Assembly: GCA_021779375.1 (NCBI GenBank)
Contig: JAJYAT010000007.1
Location: 1-58,393 of the forward strand
DNA from: a bacterium
GTDB taxonomy: Bacteria > Patescibacteriota > Gracilibacteria > JAHISY01
Direction of reading: 5' to 3'
Length of the DNA: 58,393 nucleotides
The notes beneath the pieces are model-generated. The model was not told where the DNA came from and searched no databases. It was given only the letters and a program-made list of their open reading frames with translations. Both the position numbers and the translations under genes were made by a program. Below, one piece after another: positions 4,075 to 55,379 of this stretch (its first letter is position 1; every line of letters starts with the position of its first letter).

Positions 4075-4102
4075 GTAGGGAACGGACATGTCCGTTCCCT
4101 AC
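4075..4102. repeat. 28-bp perfect palindrome, GTAGGGAACGGACA family
   Basis: Each half reads GTAGGGAACGGACA, so the unit can fold into a perfect 14-bp stem. It lies in the 337-base non-coding gap before hisG with a second, unrelated-core palindrome 57 bases on. This looks like a REP-type dispersed element and not a terminator, because no T run follows. Confidence 0.75.
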
Positions 4103-4159: not shown

Positions 4160-4187
4160 GTAGAGACGTTGCATGCAACGTCTCTAC
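4160..4187. repeat. 28-bp perfect palindrome, GTAGAGACG family
   Basis: Each half reads GTAGAGACGTTGCA. The outer arm TAGAGACG...CGTCTCTA is the same as the palindrome inside the first REP-associated transposase gene (21329-21354), with a different centre. The shared arm suggests that this is a target or product of that enzyme. Confidence 0.8.
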
Positions 4188-14104: not shown

Positions 14105-14404
14105 GGCAGCAACTAAAAGCAATCCTGTTGAGATAATGTTGGCAATCATTCCGATTCGCGTGTGTTCTTCTTGAATTCTTAGGGATGCTTCTTGTGCGCT
14201 TGTTTGGTCCAGAGTGCATTTTTCTATGAGAGTGACCTCGTTACCACACGCATCACAAATAAAAAAACTGTTCCCTGCGGCTGGTCCACCTGAGCGTCCA
14301 GCGTCAATATGAAATTTCCATTGATGTTTACAGTTGTCGAATTTGCTGACGCCTTCGAATGTGTCCATGATTATTTTTTGATTAGCTAATTTTATTCTCG
14401 CCAC
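14084..14404 (-). CDS. Small membrane protein with a Cys pair (purL-tail cargo B)
   Basis: 106 residues from a GTG; an internal ATG (MDTFEGVSK) is an alternative start. The body holds CKHQWKFH and FFICDACGNEV, a probable metal-binding Cys/His set, and ends in a strongly hydrophobic helix (GMIANIISTGLLLVAALALLLG), so it is a tail-anchored membrane protein. The GTG lies inside a decayed duplicate of the purL 3' end, at exactly the position where the next cargo gene starts in the intact purL end. AT-rich composition and unusual codons suggest acquisition. No family is recognised. Confidence 0.7.
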   Translation of the reverse strand: MARIKLANQKIIMDTFEGVSKFDNCKHQWKFHIDAGRSGGPAAGNSFFICDACGNEVTLIEKCTLDQTSAQEASLRIQEEHTRIGMIANIISTGLLLVAALALLLG

Positions 14405-14514
14405 ATCTTCCTAAAACTCTCCTCCTAGATTTTCTCCCAATCGTGGCGCGGCTTGGAATTAACCGCGCCGACTTTCGCAATTTTCACGCCAAGTTTTGTC
14501 GCGAGTGTTTTTTT
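14392..14514 (-). pseudogene. Duplicate of the purL 3' end (decayed)
   Basis: About 121 bases align without gaps to the last 121 bases of purL (14887-15007) with 15 differences (about 88% identical). The encoded tail is still readable (TLATKLGVKIAKVGAV...EESFRKMWRE) and most differences are synonymous, but one Trp codon has become TAG. The copies therefore diverged under selection, probably in two lineages, before this one decayed. The homology ends abruptly near 14514. It lies 62 bases downstream of cargo gene A. Confidence 0.85.
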
Positions 14515-14575: not shown

Positions 14576-14899
14576 TTATACAATTTCTATTGTTTCGATT
14601 TTTTCAACTTTTGATTTTGAGCTTGTGAAGCCAAATAAATGTGTTTTTTCTATAATTTGAAAGAAGCTTGGGTCTTCGTCTATAAACTCAAGAACGTAAT
14701 TATTTCCCAGTTCATATCTTGTCGCATCGTGACCAAATTCATCTTTGGGGTCAGCTTTGTAAAAAAATCTTTCTTGTATCGTGAAAGTCTTGCCGTTTAT
14801 TTTAATGCGGTCATTTTCTTTTAATCGTAGCAATCCTTTGGTCAATCCTTTATTCATATCATTAGCTGATGATTTAATCGTAACAATTATTCTCTCCAC
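14576..14899 (-). CDS. Small hypothetical protein, DUF4178-like (purL-tail cargo A)
   Basis: 107 residues. The GTG start overlaps the last codons and stop of purL (purL ends at 14887), so it is coupled to purL. The sequence (LKENDRIKINGKTFTIQERFFY, then YELGNNYVLEFIDEDPSFFQII) has the strand pattern of DUF4178-like small beta domains, a resemblance by eye only. It is much more AT-rich than purL. It sits between the intact purL tail and a second, decayed purL tail, which marks it as inserted cargo. Confidence 0.75.
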   Translation of the reverse strand: MERIIVTIKSSANDMNKGLTKGLLRLKENDRIKINGKTFTIQERFFYKADPKDEFGHDATRYELGNNYVLEFIDEDPSFFQIIEKTHLFGFTSSKSKVEKIETIEIV

Positions 14900-17160
14900 A
14901 TCCTCCTAAAGCTCTCCTCCCAGATTTTTTCTAAATCGTGCCGCGGCTTGGAATTCACTGCGCCGACTTTCGCGATTTTCACACCAAATTTCGTCGCGAG
15001 CGTTTTTAGCTTCGCGAAATTCGCTGGTGTGACTTCGAGTAAAAAGCCTGGATTTTCCGAGAATAATTCGGCGTTCGAAAGTCCGGCGAGTTCAAAACCA
15101 AAATTCGTGCCGAAGCCGGATTCCGCTGCTGCGACTGAGACGCCGCCGCGATGCAGGTCGCGATTCGAGACCAGGAATTTGCGCGCTGCCAAAACAAACT
15201 TAATTTCTTTGGCGAACATTTTCGCGTCGAATTCAAAGGCTAGACCAAATTTCTCACCAAGTGCTTTTTCTAGCTCGCTGCCGCCGAGATTTTCACTGCG
15301 CTTGCCGATGAGGATTAGGAGATTGCCCGCGGTTTGGAATTTTTGCGGGACGAATTTTGCGGCATCATTTAATTTCCCCACACACGCCACGAGTGCGCTC
15401 GGATTAATCGAGTCGCGACCATTTTCATTGTAGAGACTGACATTGCCACTGACGAAAGGCGTGCCAAAAAGCTCGGCTGTATTGCGCAAGCCCTCAATCG
15501 CCGCGACGAATTCACCCATTTGCGCAGGCTTCTCGGGATTCCCGAAATTCAGACAGTCGGTGAGGGCGAGCGGCTGCGCGCCGAGCGCGACGACGTTGGC
15601 GATGGCTTCCGCGACAGCGTGCTCGGCCTGGAGTTTCGCCGAATATTTGCCGAGGCTGGCGTCGCCGCCCGTGCCGATCGTGATGCCGATTTTTTTCAAT
15701 TCATCCGGCGCGGTCGTATTCACAAGCGGACGAATAATGGCGCTGCCGCCACAGCCCGCGTCGCGCAGCGTTCCGCCTTGGACTTGTTTGTCGTATTTTT
15801 CGTAGATCGGTTTGCGCGAAGAGATGTTTTCGCTCGCGAGTAATTTCCGCAGAGTTTTCTCGACATTTATTTTTGTGAAATCAAAACTCACCGCAGGAAA
15901 CACTTTATTCTCAGGTACGAAAGCGCGGTCGTAGAGCAGACCCTCGGTCAGGACTCTAGCTGGTGCGTCGATGACTTTCGTGCCGCCGAATTTCAAAACA
16001 TAATTGCCGTGCGTCACTTTGCCGACGACACTCGCGCGCGCGCCGTTTGAGACAGTCGGCAGTGCCCATTTTTCATTGTAATTCGCGAGAATCAGCGGCG
16101 TGATTTGCGGATCGCAAATCCAGCAAAAGCGTTCCTGCGTCTCGGCGGCGGCTATGATTTGCGGTGGGAGATTTTTTTCGCCGACGTGAATTTTTTCCAG
16201 GTCGATTTCTGCGCCGAAATTATTGCGGTCGAGCTGCTCGACGCTCGCGCAGACATTGCCGCCTGCGCCCATGTCTTTGAAACTCACTTTGCCCAAAAGT
16301 TTCCGGCGCTTCAATTCACCGAACAAATCGTAAGTCGAGGCGAGCAACATTCTCTCCAAAAACGGATTCGGTTCCTGCACCGCGCCCTTATTCGTCTCGG
16401 CGTCTTCCTCTTTCAGTTCACCGCTCGCGAAGCTCGCACCGCCGAAGCCACTGCGGTCGGTCGCTTTGCCGATGATGATGATGTCGTATTTTTTATCAGC
16501 TGCTTCTTCCGGTGCGAAAGAATGAATGATTTCATCGTCACTCAGGACACCGAGCGCAATCACATTCACGAGACAATTCGAATCGAAACTTTTTTCGAAT
16601 TCGATATCGCCGCCGAGATTCGGCACGCCGAGCGGATTGCCGTAACCCGCGATGCCCGCGACGACTTCGCGCGCGAGCCAGCGATTCGTGGGTTTCTCGA
16701 TTGCGCCGAAACGCAGCACATCGAGACAGCCGATTACGCGCGCACCCATGCAGAGAATGTCGCGGACGATGCCGCCGACACCAGTCGCCGCGCCTTCGAA
16801 AGGCACGATTTGGCTCGGGTGATTGTGGCTCTCGTGACCGATGACAAGTCCCCACTTTTTGCCTGTTTTCTCCTTCGCAATTTCGACAATGCCCGCATCC
16901 TCGCCCGGTCCGAGAATCACAGACTTTCCGCGCGTCGGTAGTTTTTTCAAATAATTACGGCTGGAACGGTAACTGCAATGCTCGCTACCCTGAATGCCCA
17001 AAATCGTTAGCTCGGTGAGCGTGAGCGGCCGCCCGATTTTCTTTTGAAAATATTTTGCCTCGGCGATTTTTAGCGCGATGCGATTTTGCACCAAAAAAAT
17101 TTCCGCCTCTTTTTCCGGCGAATTCTCGAAATCGAAAACGGGCTCAACATGTTTTTTCAC
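14887..17160 (-). CDS. purL: Phosphoribosylformylglycinamidine synthase, PurL subunit
   Basis: ATP-dependent amidation of FGAR in purine synthesis, working with PurQ and PurS in bacteria with the split enzyme. 757 residues, the size of the small PurL. Visible: GHESHNHPSQIVPFEGAATG (catalytic His and substrate loop), CMGARVIGCLDVLRFG, KDMGAGGNVCASVEQL, a second AIRS-like half with TIGTGGDASLGKYS and DCLNFGNPEKP. The start is GTG with TAAAAT 7 bases upstream, a leaderless arrangement. Its 3' end is present twice (see 14392-14514). PurQ and PurS are not in the window. Confidence 0.95.
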   Translation of the reverse strand: MKKHVEPVFDFENSPEKEAEIFLVQNRIALKIAEAKYFQKKIGRPLTLTELTILGIQGSEHCSYRSSRNYLKKLPTRGKSVILGPGEDAGIVEIAKEKTGKKWGLVIGHESHNHPSQIVPFEGAATGVGGIVRDILCMGARVIGCLDVLRFGAIEKPTNRWLAREVVAGIAGYGNPLGVPNLGGDIEFEKSFDSNCLVNVIALGVLSDDEIIHSFAPEEAADKKYDIIIIGKATDRSGFGGASFASGELKEEDAETNKGAVQEPNPFLERMLLASTYDLFGELKRRKLLGKVSFKDMGAGGNVCASVEQLDRNNFGAEIDLEKIHVGEKNLPPQIIAAAETQERFCWICDPQITPLILANYNEKWALPTVSNGARASVVGKVTHGNYVLKFGGTKVIDAPARVLTEGLLYDRAFVPENKVFPAVSFDFTKINVEKTLRKLLASENISSRKPIYEKYDKQVQGGTLRDAGCGGSAIIRPLVNTTAPDELKKIGITIGTGGDASLGKYSAKLQAEHAVAEAIANVVALGAQPLALTDCLNFGNPEKPAQMGEFVAAIEGLRNTAELFGTPFVSGNVSLYNENGRDSINPSALVACVGKLNDAAKFVPQKFQTAGNLLILIGKRSENLGGSELEKALGEKFGLAFEFDAKMFAKEIKFVLAARKFLVSNRDLHRGGVSVAAAESGFGTNFGFELAGLSNAELFSENPGFLLEVTPANFAKLKTLATKFGVKIAKVGAVNSKPRHDLEKIWEESFRRMWRE

Positions 17161-20921: not shown

Positions 20922-20969
20922 TTCCTGCAAAAAGCCGCAAACGTGCTAAAATCAAGAGAATCTTTTTTT

Positions 20970-21599
20970 GTGAATAAGCTTTTTCAGAAAAAATACCGCA
21001 TCGCTTCTGCGCGCCTAAGCGGTTTTGATTATTCCCAGGACGGATATTATTTCGTGACGATTTGTACGAACGGTCGAAAAAATTTTTTTGGTGAAATTAA
21101 AAATCAACAAATGTTTCTGTCGCCAATCGGCAGAATCGCTAGACAATCTTGGCAGGAAATTCCGCAACATTTTCCATTTGTGCAGCTGGATCAATTTGTC
21201 GTGATGCCAGATCATGTTCACGGAATTGTGGTTATTGATAATTGGACCGGCAGCAATGAAAACATCGACACAGATAGAGACGCAAACATTGGCACAGATA
21301 GAGATAGAGACGCAAACATGGGCACAGATAGAGACGCAAAATTTTGCGTCTCTACTACGAGTACGGGAAATAAATTCGGACCTCAGTCCAAAAATCTCGC
21401 CTCAGTTATTCGAGGTTTCAAAGTCGGCGTAAAAAAATACGCGACACTGAACAAAATTCCTTTTGCTTGGCAGCCGCGCTTTTTCGATAGAATCATTCGC
21501 GACGATGCCGAATTTAATCGTGTCCAAGATTACATCAGCACGAATGTGGCAAACTGGGAAAAAGATGCAGGTAGCAGAGATGCTAATCTTTACGAATGA
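20970..21599 (+). CDS. REP-associated tyrosine transposase (RAYT), Y1/HUH type
   Basis: IS200-like single-strand DNA transposase domesticated or co-mobile with REP palindromes. 209 residues from GTG. Visible are DGYYFVTICTNGRKNFFGEI (family N-terminus), MPDHVHGIVVI (HUH metal site) and VQDYISTNVANW (helix with the nucleophile Tyr). Between the HUH strand and the next conserved block (NLASVIRGFKVGVKKYA) lies an in-frame, tandemly repeated insert (21270-21354) ending in a perfect palindrome. TAAAAT is 17 bases upstream. The stop overlaps the uvrB start by ATGA. A start at 20943 is possible. Confidence 0.85.
   Translation: MNKLFQKKYRIASARLSGFDYSQDGYYFVTICTNGRKNFFGEIKNQQMFLSPIGRIARQSWQEIPQHFPFVQLDQFVVMPDHVHGIVVIDNWTGSNENIDTDRDANIGTDRDRDANMGTDRDAKFCVSTTSTGNKFGPQSKNLASVIRGFKVGVKKYATLNKIPFAWQPRFFDRIIRDDAEFNRVQDYISTNVANWEKDAGSRDANLYE
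21270..21354 (+). repeat. In-frame tandem repeat and palindrome inside the RAYT gene
   Basis: Three units of ACAGATAGAGACGCAAA (the second with an extra GATAGA) encode TDRDAN-type repeats. The last unit runs into a 26-bp perfect palindrome (21329-21354; half TAGAGACGCAAAA). Its outer arm TAGAGACG matches the palindrome before hisG (4160-4187). The reading frame is kept throughout. Confidence 0.85.
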
Positions 21600-24301: not shown

Positions 24302-25336
24302 ATGCAGACTGCGGATTTCGATTACGATTTGCCCAAAAAATTTATCGCGCAGCGGCCAGCGAGTCCGCGCGATTCGTCCAAGCTGCTCGTTTACGAGCGC
24401 GCAACGGGCGCGATTCGGCACAAAAAATTCTCGGACTTGCCCGATCTGCTCGAGCCCGGCGATGTTTTGGTTTTGAATGAATCGAAGGTGATTCCGGCGC
24501 GGCTCGCGACAGTCGAAGGGCGCGAGGTTTTTCTCGCGAAAAAAATCCCCCCCGACCCCCCCTTGCAAGGGGGGGGAGCTGAGGAGATTTGGGAGTGCCT
24601 GGTTCGTGGCGGGAAGCATTTTCAAGTTGGCGATAAATTTAAAATTTCAAAAAGCTTCACAGGCGAGGTTCTCGAAATTTTGCCGGACGGCGAGCGCGTG
24701 ATTCGCTTTAATTCTCGCCATTTTCAAAAAGATTTGGCGAAATATGGGGCGACTCCGCTGCCGCCCTACATCGAACAGACGGCGAAAAAAGTGCCGCAAT
24801 ACCAGACGGTTTACGCGAAACGCACGGGTTCGGTCGCGGCGCCGACGGCGGGGTTGCACTTCACGCCGCGGATTTTCCAGAAGCTCAAAGCCAAAAAAAT
24901 TCAGATTGAAAAAGTCACGCTGCACGTCGGGCTCGGGACTTTCGCGCCGGTCAAAGTCGATCAAATTGAAAAACACCCGATGCACGCCGAATTTTTCACT
25001 TTGCCGGAATCAGTCGCATCGCGCCTGAATACCGCGAAAAAAGCGGGACGGCGAATTATTGCGGTTGGCTCGACGAGCTGCCGCGTGCTCGAAAGTTGCG
25101 TGAACCCCAAGGGTGTTTTGAAAGCGCAAACAGGGGAGACGGACATTTTCATTTTCCCGGGTAAAAAATTCAAATTCATCGATGCGCTGCTGACTAATTT
25201 CCATTTGCCGAAGTCGACGCTGATCATGCTGGTCGCGGCTTTGGTCGGGCGGGAAAAAGTTCTCGAGCTTTATGAGCTGGCGAAACGGAAAAATTACCGC
25301 TTCTTTTCGTTCGGCGATGCGACACTTTTACTGTAA
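24302..25336 (+). CDS. queA: S-adenosylmethionine:tRNA ribosyltransferase-isomerase
   Basis: Late queuosine step that adds the cyclopentane ring from SAM to 7-aminomethyl-7-deazaguanine in tRNA. 344 residues: N-terminal [35 protein letters not shown], central [38 protein letters not shown]-terminal [22 protein letters not shown] and the [10 protein letters not shown] end. Residues about 83-93 ([11 protein letters not shown]) are an in-frame insert encoded by a C-run/G-run palindrome, not part of the family core. TAAAAT (24289-24294) ends 7 bases before the ATG, so the mRNA is probably leaderless. Confidence 0.95.
24546..24577. repeat. In-frame palindromic element in queA (CCCCCCCTTGCAAGG family)
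   Basis: Core palindrome CCCCCCCTTGCAAGGGGGGG (24556-24575) preceded by TCCCCCCCGA. It encodes a Pro/Gly-rich insert between two conserved strands of QueA. A related element (AAATCCCTCCCAGCC... with a CTTTCGCAAAG centre) is inside the 5-formyl-THF cyclo-ligase gene at 55042-55075, read in a different phase. Confidence 0.8.
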
Positions 25337-28089: not shown

Positions 28090-28421
28090 CGGACTGCCAA
28101 GATTATGCCGCCGAAAATTAGCGCAATGCCGAAAATCTGCGGGAAGCTGAGCGTCTCACGCAGGATGAAAAAAGAAAGCGCGAGGACGATGGCGAAAGTC
28201 CCGCCGACGAAAGCTGGGTAACCGATGGCGAGATTCGTGCGTTGCAAAAAGAGTGCGTAGAAAATGACATTCATGCCAAACAGGAAAATCGCGAGCCAAA
28301 ACAGCGGTTCGCGCAGTGTCGCGAGAGAAGCGAGGTGATCGGTTCTCTCGCCGAGGAGTTTCAGTGCGAAGCTGGCGAAACCATTGAAAGCGATGCCGAC
28401 AATAAAAATTAGGTAACTCAT
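28086..28421 (-). CDS. EmrE/ArnE-like four-helix membrane protein
   Basis: 111 residues, four membrane helices (about 1-21, 37-57, 63-83, 90-110), the SMR/EamA half-size fold. The longer frame upstream belongs to the glycosyltransferase end in another frame. The helix-1 Glu of drug-exporting EmrE is not at the usual place (MSYLIFIVGIAFNGFASFALK), which argues against drug export. ArnE/ArnF-type proteins flip lipid-linked sugars, and the neighbours here are a prenyl-phosphate sugar synthase and a GT-C enzyme, so a flippase role is a reasonable inference. Confidence 0.7.
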   Translation of the reverse strand: MSYLIFIVGIAFNGFASFALKLLGERTDHLASLATLREPLFWLAIFLFGMNVIFYALFLQRTNLAIGYPAFVGGTFAIVLALSFFILRETLSFPQIFGIALIFGGIILAVR

Positions 28422-29992
28422 GGCGTGAATTTTACTGCAAAAATCCACCAGAAATAATCGCTCGAAAAGTTCGAGCAACTTTTGGGGTCGCCTGACTTCA
28501 GCTTGGCGCGTAGCGTGAAACTGACTCCGTCCAAAATTTTCGTGTCCCCAATTTTCAAATTCGCGTCGGCGAGCGATAGGACGTTGGATTTTTTCCAAGC
28601 TGGATATTCGCGATACATTTCTTCCTCCAGTACGAAAAAATTTGGTCGTTCGTTTTTCAAGAATTGCAGCTGATCGCCGGATTGTACGAAAGGAATTGCG
28701 CGGGCATCAAGTGTGCCGTCGAGCGAAAGCATTCGACGCTCGCCAAAAAAGGCAGACTGATCGACTTCTTTCAGCGCAATCAGGCTGTCGGTGGGCGTAT
28801 TTTCTTCGAGCCACAGTCCGACATCACGGCGCGCCTGGTCGAGGAAAGGCTGTTCGCAGCTCGCGATTGACGCGCGGCGTTCCAAAAATTGTTGACCGGA
28901 AATAAGGAGACTTCCCAGAAGTACCAAAACTAAAATGGGAGTTTGCCACTTTTTGGGTAAGCGAAAAACTCCGAGAATTGAGATTAAATAAAAAAACGGC
29001 AGAGCCGCGAGAATGTAGCGGTAGCCTTCCGTCGTCGGGAAAATCACCGAGAAGAAAATCGCGTGAAAAGCGAGCCACGCGAAGATTGGATAGGAAATGC
29101 TCGAGTTAACCCACCACCTAGGTGGTGGGTTAACGGGTTTATAAAAAAAGAACAACAGGAAAAAAGGAGTGAGTGGTAAGAATTTTGTCACGAGAATCTT
29201 CGGAATTTCGAGCGTGAAGAAGATACCGCCGAATTCGTGCGCCCACTGCCGTGCGCGCAGAATCCTTGCAATCGTCGAAGGAAAAATCGAACCGGTGTTC
29301 GCAAAGAGCCAAAAGTAGTAAGGCGCAAAAATCAAAGCAGTAGGTAGACCGACAGTTAGAAGCGCGCGCCATTTTTTCTGCGCGAGTAGTCCGATCCCGA
29401 GGAAAGCCGTGAGAAACCAGGCTTCCGGGCGCGTCAAAATCGCGACTCCCAAAATCAAGCCTAAGGTTAACTCGCCAGATATCTGGGGGGTTAACGAGCT
29501 TGATGTAGATTTAGCCGGAGGGTTAACGAGTTCCAAGTAAACCAAAAAACTTCCGAGTACGAGACAGACGAAGAGCGGTGTCTCCATGCCCTTCGCTGCC
29601 CAAAACGGCAGCACGAAATTGGTCGCGAGGAGTGCGGCAGTCGCGAGTGCAGCAATGCGGTTGCTAGAAATTTTTTCGGCGAACTTAAATGCCAAAACAA
29701 TCGCGAGCGCGACAAAGAAGCTGGCTAAAATTTTGACTGCCCAGATTATTTGCATGCCAAAAATTTTCCAGACGGGCGCGAGCAGCAGACTCCAAAAGGG
29801 TGAAGTCGAACCGGCGGAAAACTGTCCATTGTAAAAAAAGAACTGACCGTCGGCGATACCGCGTGCGAAAACGAAGTGGATGAAAGCGTCGCCCATCACG
29901 ACGTTCCGTAAAAAATAAACTTGGGCAAATGCCAGCAAAACCAAAAGCGCGAGCCACACGGAATTCGGAATTCGAGCTAAAAATTTTTTCAC
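28418..29992 (-). CDS. GT-C fold membrane glycosyltransferase
   Basis: 524 residues from the GTG at 29992, which forms a GTGA overlap with the upstream gene (a frame reaches to 30028). About ten membrane helices in the first 400 residues; the first loop carries VVMGDAFIHFVFARGIADG with the Asp expected for a GT-C base and AGSTSPFWSLLLAP. A soluble C-terminal part follows (about 400-524). It should transfer sugar from a polyprenyl-phosphate donor on the outer face. Two loop regions hold in-frame inserts from the GTTAAC palindrome family (VNPPPRWWVNSS; VNPPAKSTSSSLTPQ). Arabinofuranosyl- or mannosyl-transfer cannot be told apart. Confidence 0.75.
   Translation of the reverse strand: MKKFLARIPNSVWLALLVLLAFAQVYFLRNVVMGDAFIHFVFARGIADGQFFFYNGQFSAGSTSPFWSLLLAPVWKIFGMQIIWAVKILASFFVALAIVLAFKFAEKISSNRIAALATAALLATNFVLPFWAAKGMETPLFVCLVLGSFLVYLELVNPPAKSTSSSLTPQISGELTLGLILGVAILTRPEAWFLTAFLGIGLLAQKKWRALLTVGLPTALIFAPYYFWLFANTGSIFPSTIARILRARQWAHEFGGIFFTLEIPKILVTKFLPLTPFFLLFFFYKPVNPPPRWWVNSSISYPIFAWLAFHAIFFSVIFPTTEGYRYILAALPFFYLISILGVFRLPKKWQTPILVLVLLGSLLISGQQFLERRASIASCEQPFLDQARRDVGLWLEENTPTDSLIALKEVDQSAFFGERRMLSLDGTLDARAIPFVQSGDQLQFLKNERPNFFVLEEEMYREYPAWKKSNVLSLADANLKIGDTKILDGVSFTLRAKLKSGDPKSCSNFSSDYFWWIFAVKFTP
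29105..29134. repeat. 30-bp palindrome inside the GT-C gene (GTTAACCCACCACCT family)
   Basis: Perfect palindrome whose half is GTTAACCCACCACCT. It is translated in frame as a loop insert (VNPPPRWWVN). An identical copy lies between genes at 31115-31144, and a diverged copy is at 29466-29495. Confidence 0.85.
29466..29495. repeat. Diverged member of the GTTAAC palindrome family in the GT-C gene
   Basis: Same length (30) and same GTTAAC ends, with two mismatches between the halves (GTTAACTCGCCAGAT / ATCTGGGGGGTTAAC). A further half-site (GGTTAACGAG) begins at 29521. The whole patch encodes a Ser/Pro/Thr-rich loop. Confidence 0.6.
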
Positions 29993-30834
29993 GCGAAATA
30001 CAAAATGGCGAAGACGGCGAACATCCACGCGACGACGCTCCCGAGGAGCGGGAGATCATGAAAAAGTAAATCAGTCGGATTTTCATGCGCGGACTTACGT
30101 TCAATCAGTAGCAAGTAACGCAGCAGGCCGAAGACGACGATGGGCGCTGTCCAGAAAAAGTTGGCGGATTCGCTCGCCTGAAATGAGTAAAAAAGGTAGC
30201 TCACCAGAATCGCCGGCAATAAAATTTTGATCGTTGATTGCAGAAAAGCGGGCGGATATTTCGCGAGGACTTTGCGCGAGACGTGTCCAGCCGTCTCGAT
30301 TTCGCGCAATCTTTTGCCGGCGGCGAGCAGGAGGGCGAGGAGAAAAGTAATCGCGAGTAGCCAACCAGAGAGCGTGACACTGGCAGCGATACCACCGGCG
30401 AAGATTCGTAAAATAAATCCGAGCGAAATGCTGAGCAGGTCGATGATTGCCAAATGCTTCAGCCATAGCGAGTAGGCGATTTGTAAAAGAATGTAGCTGC
30501 CGACAATTACAATCAATGTTCCAAAATTTGCTGCGAGAAAAAGTGCCGCGAGGAGGAGCGCTCCGCTCAAGACGATGGCGATTCTTTTCGGCAGTCGCCC
30601 GCTGGCGATGGGACGCGTTTTTTTGGTGTGGTGGTGGCGGTCGGATTCACAGTCCAGGATGTCATTCAAAACATAGACACCGCTCGACGCGAGACAGAAA
30701 ATACCGAAAGTCGCAGCGACTTTGGCGATCGAATCAAGATTTAAGAATTCGCGTGCGAAAACCAGCGGAACGAAAATTAACAGATTTTTGATCCACTGTT
30801 TTGGTCGGAGCGTTTCCAAAATCGCGAAAAACAT
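29989..30834 (-). CDS. UbiA-family polyprenyl-phosphate phosphoribosyltransferase-like protein
   Basis: 281 residues, 8-9 membrane helices. The N-terminus RPKQWIKNLLIFVPLVFA and the motif YVLNDILDCESDRHHHTKKTRPIASG are those of decaprenyl-phosphate phosphoribosyltransferases, which join PRPP to a polyprenyl phosphate as the first step to the lipid-linked arabinose donor. The Asp-rich motif binds Mg-diphosphate. TAAAAT is 7 bases before the ATG. It heads a unit with the GT-C enzyme and the SMR-like protein (overlapping ends). DprE1/DprE2-like epimerase genes are not in the window, so the final sugar is unknown. Confidence 0.85.
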   Translation of the reverse strand: MFFAILETLRPKQWIKNLLIFVPLVFAREFLNLDSIAKVAATFGIFCLASSGVYVLNDILDCESDRHHHTKKTRPIASGRLPKRIAIVLSGALLLAALFLAANFGTLIVIVGSYILLQIAYSLWLKHLAIIDLLSISLGFILRIFAGGIAASVTLSGWLLAITFLLALLLAAGKRLREIETAGHVSRKVLAKYPPAFLQSTIKILLPAILVSYLFYSFQASESANFFWTAPIVVFGLLRYLLLIERKSAHENPTDLLFHDLPLLGSVVAWMFAVFAILYFA

Positions 30835-31114: not shown

Positions 31115-31144
31115 GTTAACCCACCACCTAGGTGGTGGGTTAAC
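31115..31144. repeat. 30-bp palindrome, intergenic copy (GTTAACCCACCACCT family)
   Basis: Identical to the copy inside the GT-C gene at 29105-29134. It lies between the GIY-YIG gene and tRNA-Met. No T run follows, so it is a dispersed repeat and not a simple terminator. The stretch 31145-31222 is AT-rich and shows nothing else. Confidence 0.85.
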
Positions 31145-51786: not shown

Positions 51787-51815
51787 TAGATTTTGGTTTT
51801 ATTGCTCGGCGGGCA

Positions 51816-51837
51816 GGCGCGGTCACGTGACCACGCC
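51816..51837. repeat. 22-bp palindrome before the second RAYT gene (GGCGCGGTCAC family)
   Basis: Halves GGCGCGGTCAC / GTGACCACGCC, one mismatch. It contains a possible GTG start (51827) of the transposase frame. A perfect copy is inside the same gene at 52171-52192, also preceded by GCA. Confidence 0.8.
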
Positions 51838-51856
51838 TACGTCTGCACAACAGAAA

Positions 51857-52468
51857 ATGCTAAGCAAAAAATCTCCTCGACGGATACACGAAGACGACGC
51901 GATTTATTTCGCGACCAGTAAAACGCAAAACAATTTTCCATTTTTTCGCGAAGAAATTCTGGGAGATTTGTGGATTGCAGAATTGAGCTTGGTGAAGCAG
52001 ATTAAAAAGTTTGAGCTCTATGCTTTTTGTTTGCTGCCGGATCATTTTCATATTTTGTTGCGACCGCGTTCAACAGCAAATCTTTCGGAAGTTATGCGTT
52101 CGTTCAAAACAAATTTTTCGAGAAATGCCAATCGGGTTTTGGGTTTTTCAGATTCACCATTTCCGCTGCAGGCGCGGTCACGTGACCGCGCCCACAAAAA
52201 TAGTACCCACAAAAACATTGCTCCATTATTAGCCCAAGCGGACGTTGGCGAAAAATTAGCGCAATTTTTTTTGGAAAAACACGGAGCAAACAATCACTTT
52301 CCCAAATTCGCGTGGCAGAAATCTTTTCACGATCACGGTCTGCGCGGCGAGTGTGATTTCGAAAATCATTTTGTTTACTGTACGCAAAATTTCATCAAAC
52401 ACGGTTTGGCGGCGAACTGGAAATTCACATCGCTTAATTTTCCCGAGCTGATTGATTTGCTCGGCTGA
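51857..52468 (+). CDS. Second REP-associated tyrosine transposase (RAYT)
   Basis: 203 residues from the ATG at 51857 (a GTG at 51827 within the palindrome would add 10). Marks: RRIHEDDAIYFATSKT, FCLLPDHFHILLRP (HUH metal site), a central AWQKSFHDHGLRGECDFENHFVYCTQNFIKHGL with the nucleophile Tyr in HFVYCTQNFIKHG. Between the HUH and Tyr blocks is an in-frame copy of the GGCGCGGTCAC palindrome (encoding ARSRDRAH). It is distinct in sequence from the first RAYT, so the two are separate lineages, each with its own palindrome. It converges with yebC, 2 bases apart. Confidence 0.82.
   Translation: MLSKKSPRRIHEDDAIYFATSKTQNNFPFFREEILGDLWIAELSLVKQIKKFELYAFCLLPDHFHILLRPRSTANLSEVMRSFKTNFSRNANRVLGFSDSPFPLQARSRDRAHKNSTHKNIAPLLAQADVGEKLAQFFLEKHGANNHFPKFAWQKSFHDHGLRGECDFENHFVYCTQNFIKHGLAANWKFTSLNFPELIDLLG
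52171..52192. repeat. 22-bp perfect palindrome inside the second RAYT gene
   Basis: Half GGCGCGGTCAC. It is translated in frame and does not disrupt either catalytic block. Same family as 51816-51837. Confidence 0.85.
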
Positions 52469-54469: not shown

Positions 54470-54801
54470 AAAAATTTTGTGCCACGCTTTTCGCGCTGAT
54501 TTTGCTCGCGGGTTGTGCCGCGACGGAAGTCACGATTTCCAAAACGGAGTACGAGCAAACACTCGGCAAAGCTGTCTGTGAAGTCGTCAAAGAATTGAAT
54601 GCGCGCGGCGAGCTCAAAGACAAGGCGGCACTGGAGCGTGATTTCGATCCGCTGCTGCAGCAGGCGGTCGCGAAGCTCGGTTACTCGGCGGATGACTGGC
54701 TCGCGGCGAAAGCGAAATATTTCCCTGATGAAGCCGAGCACACGAAGCTCGTGAAACTGCATTTCACTTGGTGTCTCGTCGGTGATTCGATTCCTGAATG
54801 A
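54466..54801 (+). CDS. Small lipoprotein
   Basis: 111 residues from the ATG overlapping the dcd stop. Signal peptide MKKFCATLFALILLAGC with lipobox LLAGC, then a helical domain (KTEYEQTLGKAVCEVVKELNARGELKDKAALERDFDPLL and KYFPDEAEHTKLVKLHFTWCLVGD). Two Cys beyond the lipobox may form a disulfide. Function unknown. Overlaps at both ends show that it is translated with dcd and the cyclo-ligase. Confidence 0.8.
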   Translation: MKKFCATLFALILLAGCAATEVTISKTEYEQTLGKAVCEVVKELNARGELKDKAALERDFDPLLQQAVAKLGYSADDWLAAKAKYFPDEAEHTKLVKLHFTWCLVGDSIPE

Positions 54802-55379
54802 TTGCAGCAGAAAAAGCCCGACTCCGCGTCGCGCTGCTCGCGCAGTTGCAAAATTTCACTGACCCAGAGCGAGCGCGGCAGAATCAAATTCTGGCGCAGA
54901 AATTTCTCGCGCTGCCCGAATTCATCAGCGCAAAGACTATCGCCTTTTTCGCGAGCGAACCATTCGAAGTCGCGACGGATTTTCTGATTGCGGAAAGTTT
55001 AAATTTGAAAAAAAGAGTTGCGCTGCCGCGCGTGAAAAAAAAATCCCTCCCAGCCCCCCTTTCGCAAAGTGGGGAGAATAATTTGGTTTTTCACCAAGTT
55101 AAAAATTTAAATGAATTGGAGGTCGGCTGTTTCGGGATTAATTGTCCGAGTGTAGCAGCTCCGGAAATTCCGCTCAGCGAAATTGATCTGCTCGTCGTGC
55201 CGGCGCTTGCTTTCGACCGTGCGGGCAATCGCCTCGGTCGCGGCGGCGGATTCTTCGACCGCGTTTTAGAAAAATTTACCGGCGTGTCCGTCGGTCTGGC
55301 TTTCGATTTTCAAATGCTCGAGAAAATTCCGACTGAGGATTTTGATCAAAAGGTTAATTTGGTTCTAACAGGTGAATAA
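54798..55379 (+). CDS. 5-formyltetrahydrofolate cyclo-ligase
   Basis: ATP-dependent conversion of 5-formyl-THF to methenyl-THF (MTHFS/YgfA). 193 residues: AEKARLRVALLAQL, FFASEPFEVATDFLI, LLVVPALAFDRAGNRLGRGGGFFDRVL (ATP and folate site) and GLAFDFQMLEKIPTEDFDQKVNLV. Residues about 75-95 (KKKSLPAPLSQSGENNLVF) contain an in-frame insert from a C-run palindrome related to the one in queA; it replaces a loop between the substrate strands. Confidence 0.88.
   Translation: MIAAEKARLRVALLAQLQNFTDPERARQNQILAQKFLALPEFISAKTIAFFASEPFEVATDFLIAESLNLKKRVALPRVKKKSLPAPLSQSGENNLVFHQVKNLNELEVGCFGINCPSVAAPEIPLSEIDLLVVPALAFDRAGNRLGRGGGFFDRVLEKFTGVSVGLAFDFQMLEKIPTEDFDQKVNLVLTGE
55042..55075. repeat. In-frame palindromic element in the cyclo-ligase gene
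   Basis: AAATCCCTCCCAGCC followed by CCCCTTTCGCAAAGTGGGG, a near-palindrome. It shares AAATCCC(C/T)CCC, the C run, a TT..CAA centre and the G run with the queA element, but is translated in a shifted phase. Confidence 0.65.

Follow-up and report, generated by a model that had tools for sequence, protein, structure and literature searches.

The locus considered here raises the question of why a perfect palindrome is found in frame inside queA, and whether it belongs to the enzyme or to an element that has moved into it. The window (the whole stretch of DNA that was analyzed, 58,393 nucleotides) is one entire contig, C10, of the 1.07 Mb genome, 98% complete, of a tiny uncultured bacterium (Gracilibacteria, Patescibacteria), and perfect 20-bp palindromes are unusually common in it, as 10 are observed versus 0.06 expected from composition. 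When the window is shuffled 100 times, the element is not matched once. Probably, the QueA insert is one copy of a small C-rich, REP-like element that has spread in this Gracilibacteria family, landing both inside and between genes; this assessment applies to the explanation as a whole, including the survival of the copy as a roughly neutral loop and its mobilization by a Y1/HUH transposase. The coordinates are collected in Table 1. The window also has a direct repeat of 121 nt (88% identical, 14392-14512 and 14887-15007, spacing 495 nt), of which the second copy lies at the 3' end of an ORF of 757 aa on the reverse strand (14887-17160).

Table 1. Features of the window, with positions counted from its first nucleotide and the basis of each assignment.
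Feature	Position	Strand	Basis
RAYT-like transposase gene, HUH motif PDHVHG; palindrome TAGAGACGCAAAATTTTGCGTCTCTA in frame at 21329-21354	20943..21599	+	Below Pfam threshold; motifs and relatives such as L265
queA, host gene	24302..25336	+	344 aa; Pfam PF02547 (Queuosine_synth), E 3.8e-124; 75% identity to sister species
C-rich palindromic element, full model match (head AAATC, tail, hairpin), in frame	24541..24580	+	Covariance model R1, 49.8 bits
Pyrimidine tail TCCCCCCCGA	24546..24555	+	Read from sequence; mirrors 5' arm
Perfect 20-bp palindrome CCCCCCCTTGCAAGGGGGGG (hairpin stem), directly after tail	24556..24575	+	Read from sequence; shuffles; palindrome count
Palindrome of another family (GTTAAC), GTTAACCCACCACCTAGGTGGTGGGTTAAC, in frame in membrane-protein-like ORF 28418-30028 (VNPPPRWWVN)	29105..29134	-	Sequence
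RAYT gene (Y1_Tnp); GGCGCGGTCACGTGACCGCGCC in frame at 52171-52192; copy at 51815-51838, at its 5' end	51827..52468	+	Pfam PF01797, E 2e-7
5-formyl-THF cyclo-ligase gene, second host	54798..55379	+	193 aa; Pfam PF01812 (5-FTHF_cyc-lig), E 2.7e-39
Second C-rich element, in frame, other phase (KKSLPAPLSQSGEN)	55039..55078	+	Model R1, 46.0 bits; relatives empty or filled otherwise

The initial annotation described the palindrome as adding about 11 residues to QueA between conserved strands, and this is borne out by comparison with relatives: the stretch from E75 to W97 counts 23 residues, one fewer than in the sister species (24) but more than in G005 (18, same family) or in other families (13). 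A candidate right-hand head of the queA copy, GAGATTTGG, was rejected, being conserved queA sequence that is also present in the element-free gene of G005. In the predicted structure of QueA (34 sequences, mean pLDDT 89.5, pTM 0.88) the insert forms the turn of a β-hairpin, between strands 75-82 and 95-101, where the confidence is lower than elsewhere in this otherwise confident model. This geometry supports the description of the insert as a translated extra surface loop, and the predicted turn would place it in a solvent-exposed region, as is characteristic of RPEs; for the cyclo-ligase, the same is suggested by alignment.

When the 16-base core is searched for strictly, the queA copy alone is matched, so that the tail and a covariance model are needed to define the family. 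Searching with tail and arm finds more copies in the own genome and shows that, within the genus, four of five genomes have the element, the own one included. The covariance model R1, built from 15 copies, has 17 matches in the own genome, 32 in the other genus of the family, 23, 20, 12 and 1 in the congeners and 30 in G037, which is of another family; most close relatives thus have 12 to 32 matches, and the many weaker matches farther out, beyond the family, may be plain terminators. Copies are found both between genes and in frame within them. The strong copies are either single, as in queA and in the cyclo-ligase gene, or arranged in inverted pairs with the tails pointing outward. Ten such pairs are observed, of 93-128 nt, five of which, in G032, are exactly 128 nt long, and within a pair one hairpin is usually of the subtype CCCCTCTTT and the other of CCCTCCTTT. 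No target-site duplication is established for the C-rich element.

The relative of the queA palindrome in the cyclo-ligase gene, which had been noticed as being translated in another phase, is confirmed by sequence. As the single model R1 detects both copies, they are assigned to one family. From 55044 onward the cyclo-ligase element reads TCCCTCCCAG-CCCCCCTTTCGCAAAGTGGGG, and the peptide made from it is KSLPAPLSQSGE. In the closest relative, G004, this site is empty (PRVEKDS-RDLEFHE), and the protein of the present genome is about 10 residues longer; the loop is shorter still in G003 and G005, and the solved cyclo-ligase structures, when aligned, are without most of these inserted residues. 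In G001 (L148) the same loop is filled by an unrelated palindrome, CCCTCCTCCGCTGAAGCTACGGAGGG. From the empty site in G004 and the foreign palindrome in G001 it follows that this loop is a tolerant target for different palindromes. In L148, CCCTCCTCCGCTGAAGCTACGGAGGG is flanked by the repeated GCATTCAG, which could be a target-site duplication.

In the queA gene of the sister species (L023), TCTCCCCCGACCCCTCTTTACAAAAGAGGGG is found at the same site, in a different reading phase. The alignments of both proteins are thus in agreement with the initial view of inserted rather than shared residues, and the three states of one loop among sister species, empty, filled and filled by something else, constitute a natural series for tests of loop gain. 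That a single old insertion into QueA has been inherited vertically in both species, its phase drifting by compensating indels, and that the element is now inert, is a real possibility, if not a probable one. The shared site is in its favor, as is the frequent conservation of RPEs at one site across Rickettsia species (PMC3767692). However, the flanks of the two queA copies differ by several bases on each side, their stems are of different subtypes, and the cyclo-ligase loop, having been hit by two unrelated palindromes, shows that repeated hits on one loop occur.

Under the preferred explanation, that of an element that has spread, a copy would survive within a gene if the frame is kept, if the phase used is free of stops and if the roughly 10 extra residues lie in a surface turn. 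The host enzyme would then bear a roughly neutral loop, as is suggested by structure and conservation. The agent of mobilization would most likely be a Y1/HUH transposase of the REP type that works on single-stranded DNA, to judge from the anatomy of tail plus hairpin, from the occurrence of inverted pairs and from the presence of RAYT genes in this genome. Five RAYT-type transposases are present (including L021 and L022), each with a palindrome in frame inside its own ORF, next to a weaker sixth candidate at C2:121699; the two in the window are reported as context, and an action on the C-rich element is not implied. Two neighboring double-foot palindromes of the form GTAG...CTAC, of the type seen in the RAYTs of this genome, are present at 4075-4102 and 4160-4187. 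The GTTAAC palindrome has an identical copy at 31115-31144 and a variant at 29466-29495; further members of its family are found at L142:964 and L253:2320, and the family also occurs in frame in the fumarase gene.

Against the preferred explanation stand the missing GTAG or CGTC tag, copy numbers that are modest for an active element, and the finding that the RAYT loci examined, which are a part of all such loci, include none with the C-rich element on its flanks. The missing tag and the missing cognate RAYT would also be expected if the copying follows a route that does not involve a RAYT, such as template switching at hairpins, another kind of transposase, or recombination of foreign DNA that has been taken up, the anatomy being only REP-like. 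In agreement with such a route, G003 has many C-rich copies and two RAYTs, and the one that is near a C-rich pair has its own, different palindrome. It is nevertheless rather unlikely, as REP/RAYT systems typically show this pattern of outward-tailed inverted pairs and of hairpins preceded by a single-stranded 5' tail.

The consensus of the C-rich element has a head AAATC, followed by TCTCCCC-NAA-CCCCTCTTT-NNN-AAAGAGGGG, with the TC common to head and tail, and in every copy the foot consists of AAATC and the C/T tail. A short hairpin with a 5' foot, as in REPs, is found with model R1 and in the folds, and the folds of the queA and cyclo-ligase copies are no more stable than those of shuffles of equal composition. 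The 5' tail is a mirror of the 5' arm and can therefore be matched in parallel to the purine 3' arm, T to A and C to G. Tail and stem vary together: TCTCCCC occurs with the stem CCCCTCTTT, TCCTCCC with CCCTCCTTT and TCCCCCC with stems that are nearly all C, and the register is kept in the tails TCACCCC and TCCACCC of G032, which include an A. For 15 distinct combinations the mirror match extends over 88 of 102 positions, compared with 78 expected when the partners are shuffled (p ~0.0009, a value that is optimistic as the copies are related, and that was computed on a hand-corrected list of tails). This covariation is not explained by Watson-Crick pairing between tail and 3' arm in antiparallel orientation (mean best 3.75 of 7). 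It fits a triplex-like fold-back, or a protein that would read tail and stem together. Against a free triplex stands the weakness of C+GC triad runs at neutral pH. By analogy, the tail of the C-rich element would take the role of the REP foot, and its covariation with the stem is a concrete hint at how untagged palindromes may be recognized. In known REPs this foot is a tetranucleotide beside the hairpin (PMC6006769).

In-frame copies of the C-rich element are found in at least eight genes, in three phases and in both orientations. In the own genome the hosts are queA and the genes for the cyclo-ligase, fumarase and NAD(P)HX epimerase/dehydratase, and in the relatives they are queA, alanine racemase, an aminotransferase and an ORF of 531 aa resembling a DNA methyltransferase; fumarase, dehydratase and racemase are backed by Pfam, and the aminotransferase and methyltransferase are putative, being named by reading. 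Phase +1 is used in the methyltransferase, phase +2 in the queA gene studied here and in fumarase, and phase +3 in the cyclo-ligase, the sister queA and the racemase, and in two genes the element is read backwards, from the reverse strand. The boundary of the fumarase insert is less clear, as the relative 7xky aligns across it with small gaps. In the queA and cyclo-ligase copies six of six frames are open, as was initially proposed for every phase, but this does not extend to those copies of G005 that have a TAA linker and an ACG loop and therewith stops in three frames. Among shuffles of the same composition, all six frames are open in 19% (queA) and 3% (cyclo-ligase), so that this openness is partly due to composition.

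Many intergenic copies terminate in GGGGCTTT and are terminator-like. It is nevertheless very unlikely that the family represents terminators or regulatory RNA hairpins that are conserved because of a role in the transcript, as the in-frame copies lie in the middle of genes, lack the T run and are read through, as the constant length of the inverted pairs points to a mobile unit, and as tail-stem covariation is no feature of terminators. Since the same DNA is found between genes and, in other phases, in other proteins, it is the DNA that is conserved and not the peptide. It is hardly credible that this is an ordinary variable loop of the protein whose codons happen to form a palindrome: both sites are loops, and the QueA loop of G005 is five residues longer than in other families yet without the element, but the chance expectation is negligible and the phase change at the orthologous QueA site contradicts it. 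The search of the genome supports the initial comparison with the selfish DNA of Rickettsia; the selfish nature of the C-rich element itself we infer.

More surprising than the palindromes is a side finding, the transposase domains inside tRNA synthetases. The IleRS of this genome (L019/L279, G000:C3:18553-21324) has a complete REP-type Y1/HUH transposase domain of 169 residues in frame in its editing (CP1) region, and this domain is one of the five RAYTs, not having a separate gene. Pfam places Y1_Tnp (PF01797) within tRNA-synt_1. The HUH motif, the catalytic tyrosine and the Y1 fold identify the insert as a RAYT: H54, H56 and Y133 are invariant and common to the free RAYTs, and the domain model matches IS200/IS605 transposases and the Escherichia coli RAYT 4er8. 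The same fusion is present in G001 (L166) and G005 (L165/L280), and the site is empty in the congeners G002 (L284) and G003 (L281), which reads KPLFNYFADKKN-EGAFRVVAADF, and in the aligned relatives of other families. The dN of the transposase domain is about as low as that of the IleRS core, a rough comparison as dS is saturated. An assembly error is ruled out by the occurrence of the fusion in three genomes with low dN. Inside the IleRS transposase domain lies, in frame, GTTAACCCACCAGATATCTGGTGGGTTAAC, of the same GTTAAC family as the palindromes at 29105 and 31115 of the window. In the LeuRS of G005 (L172), G115 (L339), G086 (L342) and G262 (L343), which span several families of the class, a RAYT is found in frame before or in the editing domain. 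In G256 (L340) and G267 (L341) a RAYT is fused in frame ahead of an RdgB/Ham1 NTP pyrophosphatase, and the transposase half of the fusion contains a palindrome.

It is possible, although somewhat doubtful, that this lineage hides a REP-type system in essential proteins, with palindromes as surface loops and with transposases as domains of the IleRS and LeuRS editing regions, from which they would be hard to lose, and that recognition or folding of the C-rich element proceeds by the parallel tail-stem match (a triplex-like fold-back) and not by a GTAG tag. The embedding in IleRS and LeuRS is shown by sequence; that the embedded transposases are active, and that the fold-back forms, is putative. 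The fusions raise the directly testable question of whether a transposase secures itself inside an essential enzyme. In the open-access papers no report of a transposase inside a tRNA synthetase was found, and sequence-string searches of this literature for the elements returned nothing relevant.

RPEs are palindromic repeats that have entered established ORFs while leaving the frame intact, at places exposed to solvent; in different Rickettsia species one site can be occupied by different groups of RPEs, and the Rickettsia QueA is itself a host (PMC3767692). The C-rich element resembles RPEs and the palindromic elements of Wolbachia in being a palindromic repeat in frame within existing protein genes, with QueA among its hosts. 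It differs from RPEs in length, being about 35-40 bp when single, compared with 100-150 bp (PMC3767692), in lacking the ATGAC motif of RPE-4/6/7, having a C-rich hairpin and a pyrimidine tail of unrelated sequence, and in belonging to a different phylum. REPs are mostly intergenic, with some in ORFs, and different REPs are found at about the same recB site in two Xanthomonas (PMC3733652). Like intragenic REPs, the C-rich element is a short hairpin with a 5' foot and has some copies in ORFs; unlike REPs, it has as its foot AAATC and the stem-mirroring pyrimidine tail in place of a GTAG/GTGG or CGTC tag, and no cognate RAYT was found at the loci examined. The inverted pairs form a unit of near-constant length, as in REPINs and BIMEs, but usually combine two subtypes of hairpin, and mobilization of the C-rich pair as a unit is putative. 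Subclass 2.4 TnpA-REP genes have REPs inserted in their own ORF (PMC6006769), and the RAYT genes described here likewise have palindromes in frame inside themselves; they differ from this subclass in that one is embedded in IleRS and others in the LeuRS of relatives. The C-rich element works like RPEs and intragenic REPs and is filed as neither, as length and motif differ from those of RPEs, and as the REP tag and the cognate RAYT are missing. Selfish palindromes that are read in frame are familiar mainly from Rickettsia and from a small number of genomes rich in REPs; this is a second, unrelated case, and its occurrence in a reduced Patescibacterium shows that protein-coding mobile DNA can build up in streamlined genomes.
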